DNA from: Pilaira anomala
Lineage: Eukaryota > Mucoromycota > Mucoromycetes > Mucorales > Mucoraceae
DNA length: 64,000 bases
Direction: 5' to 3'
Assembly (NCBI GenBank): GCA_025716855.1
Contig: JAIXMQ010000011.1
Location: forward strand, 62,001-126,000
Shown: positions 8,415-54,166 of the stretch, in pieces
Position numbering within the stretch: position 1 is the first letter of the stretch
How the letters are laid out: every line of letters begins with the position of its first letter
Notes under the pieces: model-generated
What the model was told of the DNA's origin: nothing
Database searches by the model: none
The model's input: only the letters and a program-made list of their open reading frames with translations
Made by a program: the position numbers and the translations under genes

Positions 8415-9812
8415 TTATTTGGAGATTTCAACACCACCGGTGGCACCCAAAACACGCTTAATATCACCATAGATGGCGCTAAAAGAAAAAAGAAAAATAT
8501 AAATTAGTAAACCAATTCCCTTCCTTTTTTTGAGTAATAAATCAACTTACAATTGACCAGCAGTAAGAGTAGCAACCATGACAATACGAGGACCGAGACC
8601 CAAGAAGAGACCCTTAACACCGAGTTGACCGGCCATGGAAAGAAGACGAGAGGTGAGAGATTCACCGACGGCACCCTTTTGCTTGTTGATCTTGGACAAC
8701 AAGGTATCAGCGGGTTGAGAAACGATGGCAGCAACAGTACCGGCAACAATACCGGAACTGAGGTTAACAGCGGTCATGGTGGAAGGAGCAATTTGATCCT
8801 TAGCAACACCCATTTGCTTAATGATGAGTTCGCTATAAAAATTAAAAAAAAAATTAAATTAATACCCAAAAACATATATAACACAATCTCTCTCTCTCCT
8901 TTTTTTTAAAAAAAAAAAACTTACGTAGTACGTTCAAAGACGACGAACTTGGCCATGGTATAAGGAACTTGCTTCAACAAGATGGGACCGAAACCAGAGT
9001 AGAAACCCTTGATGGCACCTTCTTCCTTCAAGATTCTGGAGAAACCACCGAGAAGACCGGAAGCGAAAGTAGGTTGAGAAACGAGACGAATACGGGTAGC
9101 TTCAAGAGGACAGAGAGCAACATCAGCGAAGAATTCAGCAATAGCAGAAGAACCGAGGTAGATAGCAGTACGGTTCTCAGAAGCCTTCTCAGCACCGAGA
9201 ATATCGATAGCAGTCTTCTTCCAGAATTCGTAACCACCGAACTTGAAAGCACCTTGCAAGAAGTAACCAGCAGCAGTGGGACCGAAACCGGTCAACAAAG
9301 CACCAGCACCTTCAGCAGCGATAACTTGACGGAAACCACCAATCATACCCTATAAAAATATTTTTTTTATTTATAATCAGTAAATCATTCACCCCTTATA
9401 TTTTAATCCACTTTTTTTTTTTTTTTTTTTACCTTGTTGTAAATCTCGGGAGACAATTGGATTCTGGTCTTAACAACATCGACGGGGGTCTATTAAAAAA
9501 AAAGATTAGTTATACATTATCTCTCTCTAATTTTCTCTCGATGTTTCCAATTTTTAAAAGAAAAAAAAAAAGGATTGAATTTCAATATTTACCCTGTAAT
9601 GATTCAAACAAAATATTAGTAAAATGGTCTACTTTTTTTTTTTAATTTAATTTATCTATATATACTTACATAGCACCGTGAGTGACAGCACAACAGACAG
9701 CACCGGCAAGGGCGAAACGAGCGTAGAGAGAGGCACCAGTAGGGGCGGCAACATCACCAGCGACGGAGGGAACGATGAAGTTCTTCTTTAAGGAATCTTG
9801 AGAAGGGAACAT
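8415..9812 (-). CDS. MIR1: Mitochondrial phosphate carrier
   Basis: The gene encodes a 323-aa inner-membrane carrier that imports phosphate with a proton for ATP synthesis. Six exons on the minus strand: 9812-9670, 9593 (one base), 9489-9433, 9349-8925, 8832-8551, 8478-8415. Three repeats of the mitochondrial carrier fold are present, with Px(D/E)xx(K/R) signatures [16 protein letters not shown] and PADTLLSK. The leading segment [22 protein letters not shown] and the THGAM stretch are typical of phosphate carriers. Without the one-base exon the total is 971 nt and the frame breaks between THGAM and TPVD; with it the total is 972 nt. Codon choice is strongly biased (AAG, AAC, GGT, TTC), as in highly expressed genes. 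MIR1 is used as the family name; PIC2 is an equally close label. Confidence 0.93.
9593..9593 (-). other. single-nucleotide micro-exon of the phosphate carrier gene
   Basis: On the minus strand the sequence reads TCATTACAG, G, GTAAATATTG. The first intron (9669-9594, 76 nt) runs from GTAAGT to ACAG and contains TACTAAT. The second intron (9592-9490, 103 nt) runs from GTAAAT to AATAG and contains AACTAAT before a long T-run. Inserting the single G restores ATG (Met) between GCT and ACC, giving the expected carrier sequence. Removing the 180-nt interval as a single GT-AG intron would shift the frame. Confidence 0.8.
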
Positions 9813-10824: not shown

Positions 10825-10906
10825 GTCGCTTTGTCGGAGTGGTTAACGAGATAGCCTGCTAAGCTATTGCTCTTTGAGCGCGCAGGTTCGAATCCTGCAG
10901 GCGACG
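10825..10906 (+). tRNA. tRNA-Ser (anticodon GCT)
   Basis: The 82-nt cloverleaf folds completely: a 7-bp acceptor stem (GTCGCTT with AGGCGAC, one G-T pair), D arm, anticodon stem ATAGC/GCTAT with loop CTGCTAA, a serine-type long variable arm, and T arm GCAGG-TTCGAAT-CCTGC. The discriminator base is G, as usual for serine. There is no intron. A T5 run at 10911-10915 is the expected RNA polymerase III terminator. Confidence 0.96.
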
Positions 10907-11626
10907 CTTCTTTTTGCTTCTTTTTGTTCGGATATGGTGCATGTAGTCAATCCTCTCCCAGCGATATCTTTTGTTAAAGATTGCTTGATCGTGGTTAAAG
11001 AAAAAGAGGTTCGATAAAGATAAAAAGAAATTCATGAGCGCCAGTACCTGTTGACAAGTAGAAATACTTGATGAAATAGAGCTTTGAAAAGTAAAATACA
11101 ATGGAGCGAGTCAAATATCTAAAGGAATCAAAATGTAAGAAATAGAATACATTATTATTAAATCAACAAGTGTAAAGAAGAATTAGGGTTTTAATTGCTA
11201 TAAAATAGAGAATTGATTTTTGTTAAGTTTATTCTTTTTTTTCTATGGTATATATGGTTGTATTGGTTTCATTTGTTTATTGACATCTATTATATAATAC
11301 CTTTAACTTTTTATTTCACATTTTCGTCTCTCTTTCTCAATAACTATATATTATATTATCAATGTAAATAAATAATCATTGCCTCTCCATTGAATCCTAC
11401 ATACAATCTGCTGCTTATGTCTATTTTGTAAAAAGTTCATTTTATTGTGAGGTGTACAGCCAATAATGACTGAAAATACAATTTTATTTATTGGAAAAAC
11501 ATCTTCCTTTTATTTGTGAACGATGAATGATAAACCGAGAACACATTATTGCTAAAACTAATTTCTTTGCTGGTAATAAGAATCCCAATCCCCCCTTTTT
11601 TTTATTATTATTATGATTGACATAAT
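10907..11626. other. intergenic, no gene seen
   Basis: AT-rich sequence between the tRNA and the 3' end of CTK3. No coding-like frame is visible beyond short random ORFs. Confidence 0.6.
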
Positions 11627-49377: not shown

Positions 49378-51075
49378 TCAAAGCGTTTTAGGATCATTCA
49401 AATCACAAGCGTTAGGATGTAAAGCACAATACTTTGGTTGAACAGGTTCAGCATGGATCCCACGTGCCTGTAATCGATAAACCCAATCATAGAATCGTTC
49501 AGAGACTGTTTGAACTGTTCGTCTGATCCCTCCATCATCATAACTACCCGACCAATAAAGTTCTGCAGCAGCAGCACTTCGAGGCCAAAGACGCGGTTCA
49601 AGTACGGTCGGACCTGTTTGTTCTGACCAAACAGCCACTTCACCACCCAAGACTCTACCTGTATGACTTGGTTCGATTCCAAACGTAAGATCATAGCTAT
49701 AGATACGTTGCCAGGTCTTGAAAGGGGCGCACCAAGATCCACCTACACCGCCATAATTAAAGAGATCATTCGGACTTTCCGTTTGATTTGGACTGAGGTA
49801 GCGAGGATCATTGCCTACCCATCCACCATGACCACAATCCAGATAAAAGTAATCGTAATTACTCACAATCACATCATGACCCATTTTAGTATAGATAGAA
49901 GGTGCTGCAAGCCATGTCTGAATCACTGTATTGTTCGCATAACGTCCTCCATCACGTACTGGATCTTCCCAAATAATTGGCGTCTTCTTCAAAGTTTCGG
50001 TAACGTATTTCAATAACTTGGTTGTCCACTCAAACCAAACTTCCTTTGTGGTTATATTGCGCTGTTGTGTATAACGTTGGATCCCTTCATCCAGTTCCCA
50101 ACAAGCCGTATTAATTTCATCTCCTCCTGTATGATACAAACGATCGGGGAATCTTTCAGTGGCTTCCTTTACAATATCCTTGACAAGTTCAAAAGCTTCT
50201 TTCTTCAGAGGATCCAATTGTCCTGCAGGTGGTTCGGCTGCATAAGCAGACCAAAATTCATCTCCACAAAGAATATAATCCGGATGGGATTCTCCAATCG
50301 ATGCCGTATGAGCAGGCATATCAATTTCCAACACAATACGAACCCCTCGTGACTCACCGTACTTGATCACCGTCTGAACGTCTTTTAAACTATACGTCTC
50401 TTGAGCTGAATACGCTCCCTTTTTAGAAAGTTCAGGATGTGACTTGAAATAAAAAGGCCAAGATTGAGAGTCCGTTGCATGCCAATGTAATACGTTCATC
50501 TTGTTAAATGCCTGTGCATCAATCGTACGAAGCAAGTGCTTTACAGGATAGAAATTACGTGAGGTATCAAGAAGGATACCACGATGTTCATACCTAGGTG
50601 AATCTGAAATATCAACCGAATGCGCCACCAAAGGACCATTTCTTTTACCATCTTTTGCTTGAACAAGTTGAGAAAACGTTTCAAGCCCTCGAAGTGCTCC
50701 TACCCAAGTATTGGCGGTAAGTGTAGCCTGTCCACCTTTTGAAGGTACCTGTAATGTATACGATTCATTTATACCTGCGTCCAGCTTGACTTGATTATCC
50801 TTGACATCGATCCAAAGTGTATGAAGATCTCCTCCTTGTTTCAACGTTTGCTTTGGCGTTACTTGGACTGGAACCCATCTTTCTTTAAGAATCAGCCTAA
50901 GGTATCGTCTAGCAGCATCTTGAACATGAACATGTTTAGCCCCCTTGATATCAAAGCGATCGGAAAGTTCGTTCATGGATCCTATCCAAGAAACATTCTG
51001 AGGGATAGGAAAAAGTAATGTCTTGGCCTCAATCGTCACAAAGAAAACTAATGTTACAAGTATAAAGATTTTCAT
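49378..51075 (-). CDS. Beta-N-acetylhexosaminidase, GH20 (intronless copy)
   Basis: A 565-aa protein with no introns. A signal peptide (residues 1-17) leads to the GH20 N-terminal domain and the catalytic barrel. The catalytic pair lies in YHTGGDEINTACW, with Asp near 317 and Glu near 318. Other landmarks are [42 protein letters not shown] and the [14 protein letters not shown] block ([14 protein letters not shown]). The enzyme releases terminal GlcNAc from chitobiose and glycans; it is secreted or vacuolar. It lies divergently beside a second GH20 gene (51478), but that copy has eleven introns, so the two differ sharply in structure. The C-terminus has a Cys pair (KYCALHPNACD) probably forming a disulfide. 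Confidence 0.95.
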   Translation of the reverse strand: MKIFILVTLVFFVTIEAKTLLFPIPQNVSWIGSMNELSDRFDIKGAKHVHVQDAARRYLRLILKERWVPVQVTPKQTLKQGGDLHTLWIDVKDNQVKLDAGINESYTLQVPSKGGQATLTANTWVGALRGLETFSQLVQAKDGKRNGPLVAHSVDISDSPRYEHRGILLDTSRNFYPVKHLLRTIDAQAFNKMNVLHWHATDSQSWPFYFKSHPELSKKGAYSAQETYSLKDVQTVIKYGESRGVRIVLEIDMPAHTASIGESHPDYILCGDEFWSAYAAEPPAGQLDPLKKEAFELVKDIVKEATERFPDRLYHTGGDEINTACWELDEGIQRYTQQRNITTKEVWFEWTTKLLKYVTETLKKTPIIWEDPVRDGGRYANNTVIQTWLAAPSIYTKMGHDVIVSNYDYFYLDCGHGGWVGNDPRYLSPNQTESPNDLFNYGGVGGSWCAPFKTWQRIYSYDLTFGIEPSHTGRVLGGEVAVWSEQTGPTVLEPRLWPRSAAAAELYWSGSYDDGGIRRTVQTVSERFYDWVYRLQARGIHAEPVQPKYCALHPNACDLNDPKTL

Positions 51076-51417
51076 TATTTACAATAAAAAGGAAAAAAAA
51101 AAAAAAAGAAAACAAACATAAAACAAAAAAAAGGAAAAAAAAAAAAGGTTTCCCTATTTATATAAAAAATTTGTTGGTATGGTTTTGATAAATTTAAGAA
51201 TGTAAATGGAGTTAGCCTTTTTTTTTTTTTTCATCTTGATTATGAAAGCAAGTGGATGTGTTTTTTCTTTTTCAGGTTGTATATATATATATATATAAAG
51301 CGGTATTTTAGTAAAAGGGAATATTTTGATTTAAGCTATATGATGGTTTATTGATACAATTCGCATTACATCTAATTGTCTTAATTTTATTTTTTTTCCT
51401 TTTATTTTTCTCTTCTC

Positions 51418-51469
<52 letters not shown>

Positions 51470-51477
51470 GTAGAACG
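51076..51477. promoter_or_regulatory. shared divergent promoter of the two GH20 genes
   Basis: The 402 bp between the two start codons begin with poly-A/T next to the intronless gene and end in a long (CT)n tract (about 51421-51466) directly before the start of the second gene. Co-expression during chitin turnover is plausible but not shown. Confidence 0.45.
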
Positions 51478-53387
51478 ATGCAATTGTTTATTTTATCTCT
51501 AACAATTGCTATCGTTTCTCCTTCAATTGCTTGGGCAACCTTATTATGGCCAGCTCCTCAATCTTTTGTAAAGGGTGAAGTTGAATTGAATCTCGATGTT
51601 TGTATATAAACACTTATACTTGAAGATGTAATAAAATACATATTCATATTAATATATCAATCGCTAGACTACTTTTCATATAGATGCCCCTGAAGCTAAA
51701 CATCTTCAAGAAGCAATCGATCGTTACACTCACCTCATTACTCATGAAAGATGGACACCTGTAAAATAAATAAATAAACTATTTTTGGCAATTTGTAATA
51801 CTGATGATCTTTTTTTTTTTTTATTGTTTATAGGTTCAAGTTCCTCTTACACAATCAACCAACGTTACAGTTTCAGGTCGTACACTAGCCTCTTTAGACA
51901 TAAAAATCAAGTATAAAGACATACCATTGGGATTTGACGTAGATGAATCCTATACGTTAGAAATACCAGTCAATACTCGAAAGGCTACTTTACGATCCAA
52001 TACCGTTTGGGGTTCCATTCGTGGGTTAGAAACCTTTTCTCAGCTAGTCCAGTCCCGCCCAGAACGAAATGATCAGGGTGAGCTGATTTACTATGAAGAA
52101 GATCAAGAAATAGATTCAGATAATTATGGTTTTGAAGGTTTATTCATACCAAACGCGCCTATCAAAATAAAAGATTATCCCAAATATCCTCACCGTGGTT
52201 TGATGTTGGGTAAAAATCAAGTGTTAAAATTTTAATTTAAACTAATATACAACAACTAACCCAAATCTCAATTGTTGTTTTTTTTTTCTGTTAGATACCT
52301 CAAGAAACTTTTATCCCGTAAAAGACATTCTCCGAACTATTGATGCCATGGCCTATAATAAAATGAATGCAAGTCTGTTTTGCGTTATTGTTTGTTTACA
52401 TAGCTAACCCTTTTTTATTTTTTTATTTTACACATTACACAAATCATTATATATATATTAGGTCTTTCATTGGCATCTTACTGACTCTCATAGCTTTCCC
52501 TTAAAACTCGATACTGTACCCGAATTAGCTCGTGAAGGCGCATACAAATTACACCAAAAACGTTTAGTTTATACAAAAGATGATGTGAAACAAATTATTG
52601 ACTATGCTTATGAACGTGGTGTTCGCGTCATTCCCGAGATTGATATGGTAAGCTTTTCTTTTTATTCTATCATCTTTTTACTAACCTGTATCATAAAGCC
52701 TGCTCATACAGGTTCTTGGGCAGCGGCATTTAAGGATATTACGTAAGTTATCACCTTTCTCCTTATTACATTGTTTCTAATCTCCCTAAAAAAAAATAAT
52801 TTATCACACACACACACACACACTAACAGGACTTGTACGGGTCTTCACTACTTGGATGAGTCTAATGATTGGAGTAAACGACTCGCTGCAGAACCAGGTA
52901 CGGGTCAACTCAATCCTGTTCTCGGTAAGACATACGAAATTGTAGAGAAAGTGATTTCGGAAGTAGCATCTTTATTTACCGATGCTTGGTTTCACGGTGG
53001 CGGCGATGAACCTGTATATAATTGTTGGAATCAAGATAAACGTGTTACAGACTACATGAAGAAAAATAATGCAACAGGTATTGACCTCCTTCATTTGTTT
53101 TTAAAAAAAGAATTAGATTTTATTCATAAATCCAAAAAAACTGCTATTCTTTGGGAAGGTAATAAAAACATATCAATTTTGTATCACATGCAATTAAATT
53201 TTGGGGGGGTTTTTTTTTCTTGTCTTTATATAGATCCCGTTACCAATGATCATTTGCCTCTTTCCAAAGACGTAATTATGCAAGTTTGGACAAACCCTGT
53301 TCATGTGGCTGTCAAGAAAGGATATAAAGTAATTGCATCTAATTATAATTTTTGGTACCTGGATTGTGGCCACGGTGGTTGGAAGTA

Positions 53388-53445
<58 letters not shown>

Positions 53446-54166
53446 CAAAATTTTAAGTGTTTTTAATTTTTTTTTTTTCGTTAAAAAAAAAATAGTGGTA
53501 ACGATACTTCATATGATGAACAAGTTGCACCAAAAATACCTAAATCTGTCGCTAAAGCATTATCAAAGAACAACGTAGATGATAATTATAGACCACAAAA
53601 TTGGGGTGGATCAGGTGGCGATTGGTGCAGGTAAATTATCCTCAGTTCGGTTGCCACAAACAGGAAAAACTAATCTATCAATGACAAATAGTCCATTTAA
53701 ATCATGGCAACGTGTCTATAGTTATGATATGGCCTTCAATCTAACAGAAACAGAAGCACTGAATATTTTAGGTGGCGAAGTTGCTTTGTGGTCAGAACAA
53801 ACAGATACAACTACTTTAGATGTTCGTCTCTGGTAAGTTATTTAGTAGTAGAATTTTACAAATGTTCATGTAATCTAAAAAAAAAAAAAACTTTAGGCCA
53901 AGAACTTCTGCTGCAGCAGAAATCATGTGGTCTGGAAGGTATGACAAAAATAAACATAAGAGAGATATAGGAGATGCTATGCCTAGAATATTTGATTGGC
54001 GTTATAGATTGTTACAGCGCGGAATCAATACAGAAGCATTACAACCATTGTGGTGGTAAGTTCATCTTTTTTTTTTTTATCTATAAACTTTAATACTAAT
54101 GATGTATGTAGTGGACAAAACCCTCATATGTGCGATGCAAACCATTATCCTACTCAGTCTGAATAA
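51478..54166 (+). CDS. Beta-N-acetylhexosaminidase, GH20 (eleven-intron copy)
   Basis: Twelve exons (51478-51597, 51668-51760, 51834-52209, 52295-52368, 52462-52647, 52699-52742, 52830-53158, 53234-53384, 53496-53630, 53692-53832, 53897-54055, 54112-54166) encode 620 aa. A signal peptide ends near residue 19. Landmarks: [41 protein letters not shown], catalytic [13 protein letters not shown] (Asp near 356, Glu near 357), [14 protein letters not shown] and [12 protein letters not shown]. Same activity as its neighbour. An acidic insert of about 25 residues (around 163-187) separates two conserved blocks. The intron after MN uses a GC donor (GCAAGT at 52369). Another donor, GTTTGT at 51598, is weak. 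The Cys pair at the end ([10 protein letters not shown]) matches its neighbour. Confidence 0.93.

Follow-up and report, generated by a model that had tools for sequence, protein, structure and literature searches.

How can a conserved stretch of protein, THGAM-TPVD, be encoded across a joint that no single GT-AG intron is able to make? This question is raised by a gene at 9812..8415 on the minus strand of the window, by which we mean the whole 64,000-nucleotide stretch of Pilaira anomala DNA that was analyzed. The gene is complete, and its protein contains three stretches of the Pfam domain Mito_carr (PF00153; E 1.8e-46). The best named relative among the 120 of 4,826 matches listed in a first homology search is a carrier from Thamnidium elegans, with 93% identity. 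Several of the nearest relatives bear the source name phosphate carrier, others that of mitochondrial carrier only, and by those names the product is predicted to be the mitochondrial phosphate carrier (SLC25A3/MIR1). Other carrier matches within the 34-Mb genome are 24 to 44% identical to the window protein. A tRNA-Ser gene (anticodon gct; window 10825-10907, plus strand) lies upstream of the carrier gene, at a distance of about 1 kb.

The internal G of the phosphate carrier gene

A preliminary description of this DNA had placed an exon of one nucleotide within 9490..9669, and the coordinates and letters given for that interval were confirmed on the sequence. Exon 1 has GGTGCTAT as its last letters, ending at 9670, and the coding block after intron 2 starts with ACCCCCGTCGAT at 9489. 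When 9670 is joined directly to 9489, the frame is lost and a stop follows 21 residues on, so that the description was right in holding that one GT-AG intron cannot make the THGAM-TPVD join. Inside the interval, G9593 is flanked by an AG and a GT, each from a complete intron, and the two introns, of 76 and 103 nt, were indeed found to carry their own branch-like sites. The A of TACTAAT is at 9616, 23 nt upstream of G9593, and that of AACTAAT is at 9506, 17 nt before exon 3. The base is needed for the conserved reading frame: the coding sequence closes at 972 nt, the length that had been claimed, only when G9593 is kept, and then forms one open frame of 323 amino acids that includes THGAMTPVD (Table 1).

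Table 1. Exons and introns of the predicted phosphate carrier gene, in window positions
Feature	Positions	Strand	Length (nt)	Remarks
Exon 1	9670..9812	-	143	ATG to GCTAT; ends in phase 2
Intron 1	9594..9669	-	76	GTAAGT...ATTACAG; branch-like TACTAAT at 9621-9615
Predicted single-nucleotide exon, G	9593..9593	-	1	third base of the Met48 codon
Intron 2	9490..9592	-	103	GTAAAT...AATAG; branch-like AACTAAT at 9511-9505
Exon 3	9433..9489	-	57	starts ACC CCC GTC GAT (TPVD); phase 0
Intron 3	9350..9432	-	83	
Exon 4	8925..9349	-	425	
Intron 4	8833..8924	-	92	
Exon 5	8551..8832	-	282	
Intron 5	8479..8550	-	72	
Exon 6	8415..8478	-	64	includes the stop codon

G9593 is very probably a constitutive single-nucleotide spliceosomal exon of the mitochondrial phosphate carrier gene, and we infer that the base is present in the mRNA. 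This one-base exon reading, which was the core of the preliminary description, is supported by the reading frame, by the quality of the splice sites, by a self-trained gene model, and by the failure of the annotation of relatives at the same joint.

In the route that we propose, the two complete GT-AG introns flanking G9593 would be excised in two successive steps by intron definition. Removal of intron 1 first would create the donor ATG/GTAAAT, which scores 6.08 (68.7th percentile); the donor as it stands before that removal, AGG/GTAAAT, is also good (6.72). Were intron 2 to leave first, the acceptor CAG/GACC would remain. In either order the G would complete the Met48 codon of THGAM-TPVD, and use of the outer GT-AG pair, with the G skipped, would yield a frameshifted mRNA with a nearby stop. 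Exon definition is hardly workable on one base, as argued for APC11 in the consulted sections of PMC4674806.

Splice-site tests and competing readings

The gene model combined codon scores with matrices for donors, acceptors, and branch sites; it was seeded with hand-set words and re-estimated over four rounds. Its data were the window and 20 stretches of 10 kb (264 kb in all), 18 of the 20 lying around other carrier matches and 2 on the window's contig. At intron penalties of -14, -16, and -18, the model gave 285, 262, and 221 introns whose two neighboring exons each measured at least 25 nt. At all three penalties it chose exons of 143-1-57-425-282-64 nt for the phosphate carrier gene, a choice to be read with the knowledge that this gene belonged to the training set and that the seeds included words resembling the gene's own sites (ATGGTAAAT, TACTAAT). 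No second one-nucleotide exon was called at those penalties anywhere in the 264 kb. A weaker penalty had over-called, with up to 4,012 introns and 136 one-nucleotide exons, and was dropped for the stronger ones.

For the scoring of splice sites, the introns of the carrier gene were excluded, and all three site matrices (donor, acceptor, branch) were rebuilt from 259 introns of other genes. The donors, acceptors, and branch sites of introns 1 and 2 are inside the range of these 259. Intron 1 ranks at the 46.7th percentile for its donor (100th for the GTAAGT hexamer), the 98.5th for its branch site, the 49.8th for its acceptor, and the 66.4th for length; the corresponding ranks of intron 2 are the 81.5th (69.1th for the intron part of the donor), 70.3rd, 88th, and 89.2nd. 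A composite score of the internal acceptor, branch site, and donor came to 15.69, a value matched by 1 of 20,000 dinucleotide shuffles and by none of 31 introns of at least 100 nt, of which three hold a suitably placed AG-N-GT (best score, 5.8). Across the genome, branch-AG-N-GT patterns showed no excess over reversed controls (10 vs 12, 18 vs 26, and 65 vs 105). Nine further sites of the form CTAAY..YAGGGTAART (L045-L053, 1.5-1.6 kb each) were considered as one-nucleotide exons and rejected by the model.

Four other readings of the interval were weighed against these results. A single non-canonical intron of 179 nt, either TA-AG from 9668 or GT-TA ending at 9491, would produce the same ATG-ACC mRNA, with the right frame and the same codon, and its TA-AG form would restore the frame in the eL24 gene described below too. 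We nevertheless regard it as very improbable. It leaves unexplained the internal cluster of branch site, acceptor, and donor that a single shuffle in 20,000 reproduced, and its TA donor (-9.95) and TA acceptor (-6.0) score below all 259 introns, a result partly built in, as the matrices come from a model that admits GT-AG introns only.

An error of sequencing or assembly, by which an exon edge would have lost one base and the interval would be an ordinary 180-nt intron, seems to us marginally less credible again. One deletion at either edge would make the frame gap, and the length itself is at the 94th percentile of the 259 introns, 15 of which have at least 179 nt. However, when one base was removed at the edge of those introns in a simulated deletion, a one-nucleotide exon was called in 0 of 259 cases upstream and in 1 of 259 downstream. 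A second gene, that for eL24, has the same predicted architecture, and records under the names Mucor, Helicostylum, Mycotypha, Rhizopus, and Apophysomyces break at this joint too, which argues against sequencing error.

A spliceosomal twin intron (stwintron), in which an external intron has one of its splice sites split by an internal one, has similar anatomy, with two adjoining introns that need consecutive excision, and such introns have been described in fungi. The external intron of a stwintron works only once the internal one is out, however, whereas here the sites of both introns are complete and uninterrupted, and removal of all 180 nt breaks the frame. At the carrier locus, no internal intron was found to interrupt the donor, branch site, or acceptor of an external one. 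Neither intron relies on the sites of the other, and the arrangement is therefore not a stwintron as the available text of PMC5639578 defines it; we give this reading hardly any credence.

We hold just as little by another joint in the mRNA, for example, one of AT to ACCAG/A inside exon 3. This gives THGAIIQLSPE, the joint recorded for M. flavus (P0010) and R. arrhizus (P0026), and it is the model's best result for the window gene once exons of fewer than 3 nt are forbidden. It deletes TPVDVVKTR, however; the free model prefers the one-nucleotide exon by 9.0 log units (144.6 vs 135.6), and three transcript-like records (P0002, P0004, and P0005) keep the TPVDVVKTR residues.

Records of the gene in other Mucorales

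The comparison with relatives was drawn from the 120 matches listed in the homology search and covered 48 Mucorales and Umbelopsis-type proteins (P0001-P0046, P0058, and P0072), with gaps before residue 28 ignored. Among these listed matches, 10 of the 48 have an insertion or deletion within 14 residues of the THGAM-TPVD joint, and the same count at the other three intron joints is 0, 0, and 2. The broken records are from Mucor bainieri (P0007), Helicostylum (P0009), M. flavus (P0010), Mycotypha (P0017), Rhizopus stolonifer (P0019), R. microsporus (P0020), R. azygosporus (P0021), R. arrhizus (P0026), an entry named R. delemar (P0041), and Apophysomyces (P0072). By NCBI taxonomy, the five taxa that were looked up fall in the Mucoraceae, Mycotyphaceae, and Rhizopodaceae. 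The joint is recorded intact in 38 of the 48 relatives and, by a sequence-pattern test, in 72 of the remaining 72 listed homologues. Broken forms used as queries, with 120 matches listed out of 276 and 120 out of 155, brought up no further protein broken at the joint among 261 compared; P0149 and P0185 have an insertion a few residues downstream of the joint, after TPVDV.

The broken records take several forms. In P0010, P0019, P0026, and P0041, GAI runs straight into IQL or MQL, which fits a predicted joining of AT to ACCAG/A inside the next exon. P0009 and P0072 lack residues before TPVD, a loss that fits a putative upstream phase-0 donor joined to ACC. In P0007, P0017, and P0020/21, extra residues ending in R stand ahead of TPVD, and back-translation of the three extra peptides permits ACTAAY and a final AGR; these peptides may represent the tail of intron 1, with its branch site, its AG, and the one-base exon. 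For Mucor bainieri, Mycotypha, and R. microsporus, an ordinary AG/GACC acceptor is a possible alternative; it would also give an R before TPVD in those peptides but leaves unexplained why the gene models of these species avoid the joint.

How far an intact record speaks for a simpler gene can be judged from two proteins that are both named R. microsporus. P0020 and P0015 are identical at 267 of 267 positions from QLSPE on and over their first 40 residues, yet the joint is broken in the P0020 record and intact in that of P0015. Because such near-identical proteins are recorded differently, an intact record does not exclude a one-nucleotide exon, and behind the intact records of relatives there may be a simple intron, no intron at all, or a correctly modelled gene. 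The contigs behind P0002, P0004, and P0005 are 1,053 to 1,398 nt long, contain the complete reading frame, and encode GAMTPVD; a whole frame in so short a contig suggests that the contigs are probably transcripts. P0004 (contig of 1398 nt) matches the M. bainieri protein P0007 at 263 of 265 positions from QLSPE on and at 40 of 40 over the first 40 residues, and the P0007 model breaks at the joint although the transcript-like P0004 encodes GAMTPVD.

Judged from these alignments, the ten broken public phosphate carrier records of Mucorales are probably mis-annotated at the THGAM-TPVD joint, which suggests that public Mucor and Rhizopus protein records are wrong at this point. The protein records also suggest that the one-nucleotide exon structure is probably common to other Mucorales by way of a shared ancestor. 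The nearest paralog (L025; G000 C35:302799-301663, minus strand) counts against conservation beyond the carrier gene. It is phosphate-carrier-like, 40 to 44% identical, reads THSLVTPLD, and was modelled as exons of 80, 52, 402, and 420 nt, with no intron at the joint. A scan of viral contigs found no relative.

The eL24 candidate and known one-base exons

A genome search for CTAAY..YAGHGTAAGTW gave 18 matches, against 26 in the reversed control, and three of the 18, picked by eye, were examined. Two were not one-nucleotide exons by the model. The third (L054; G000 C112, minus strand, base 138057) is a candidate one-nucleotide exon, an A, in a gene for ribosomal protein eL24 (PF01246; E 1.9e-28), and would be the second such exon in the same genome. 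The modelled exons are of 5, 75, 1, 306, and 72 nt, and omission of the single A gives a frameshift and a stop. In each of the five alignments printed for solved eL24 chains (best, 7pzy_7; E 1.7e-43), the protein is gap-free across the joint, and the composite score of 15.14 was matched by none of 20,000 shuffles. We hold this case less firmly, because the second intron has a weak branch site (TATTTAT, 2.96) and the protein reads R-H at the joint, against K-I or K-V in the five solved chains. Two more eL24 copies are found in the genome, on C198 and C219.

The preliminary description had called one-base exons extremely rare, with a plant gene as the best-known case. The plant cases stand: one-nucleotide microexons are reported for APC11 and VPS55 in the consulted parts of PMC4674806 and PMC8831610. 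The statement needs to be corrected for fungi, where a one-nucleotide exon of Fusarium CYP621A, confirmed by SRA reads, was published in 2026 (PMC12940212, available text). One-nucleotide exons are thus already published for plants and Fusarium, and G9593 of the carrier adds a case.

As far as the available texts describe them, the exons of APC11 and VPS55 are like G9593 in being a single nucleotide between two spliceosomal introns that is essential to the frame and missed by annotation (PMC4674806, PMC8831610). They differ in lying in plants and in other genes and in having been validated by cDNA, RT-PCR, or mutant constructs, and the base in Arabidopsis APC11 is an A rather than a G (PMC4674806). 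The Fusarium exon, in the sections of PMC12940212 that we consulted, is also a G, with the same AG-G-GT core, repair of the frame in a conserved motif, and wrong gene models at the joint. CYP621A is, however, an ascomycete P450 that its authors call rarely expressed, whereas the mitochondrial carrier is of Mucorales type and its exon is predicted from the genome. These authors propose that an exon-edge base was lost and rescued by a cryptic AGGGT. Stwintrons of filamentous ascomycetes, in the available text of PMC5639578, are similar as two adjoining U2 introns excised consecutively, but they have no exonic base between them and an external splice site that is interrupted, whereas the carrier keeps one base between complete introns. 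Recursive splicing likewise removes adjoining intron pieces stepwise and was proposed, with intron definition, for APC11, but it is described for large introns, whereas the carrier would retain one base between short ones (PMC4674806, consulted sections).

The one-nucleotide exon is an extremely rare gene structure, and one that gene-prediction programs seem to miss in related moulds too. Placozoans reportedly have a one-base exon in mitochondrial cox1. Text searches of the literature, including searches for Mucorales and Rhizopus, listed no one-nucleotide exon for Mucoromycota. The carrier case is unusual in that it concerns a housekeeping gene, is likely spread through the Mucorales, and is accompanied by a second candidate in the same genome; this second candidate points to an under-count of such exons in fungi. 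As a case in a core gene that shows signs of order-wide sharing, the carrier offers a ready model for one-nucleotide exons. More tentatively, and leaning slightly against it when all of its parts are taken together, we raise the possibility that one-nucleotide exons recur in housekeeping genes of Mucorales, with that of the carrier at least as old as the common ancestor of Mucoraceae, Mycotyphaceae, and Rhizopodaceae, a second in eL24, and an outer GT-AG pair that would make skipping a built-in frameshift off-switch.

Elsewhere in the window, at 49378-54166, two adjoining predicted genes on opposite strands have similar protein starts (LLFPIPQ and LLWPAPQ); we take them to be possibly duplicated secreted glycosidases.
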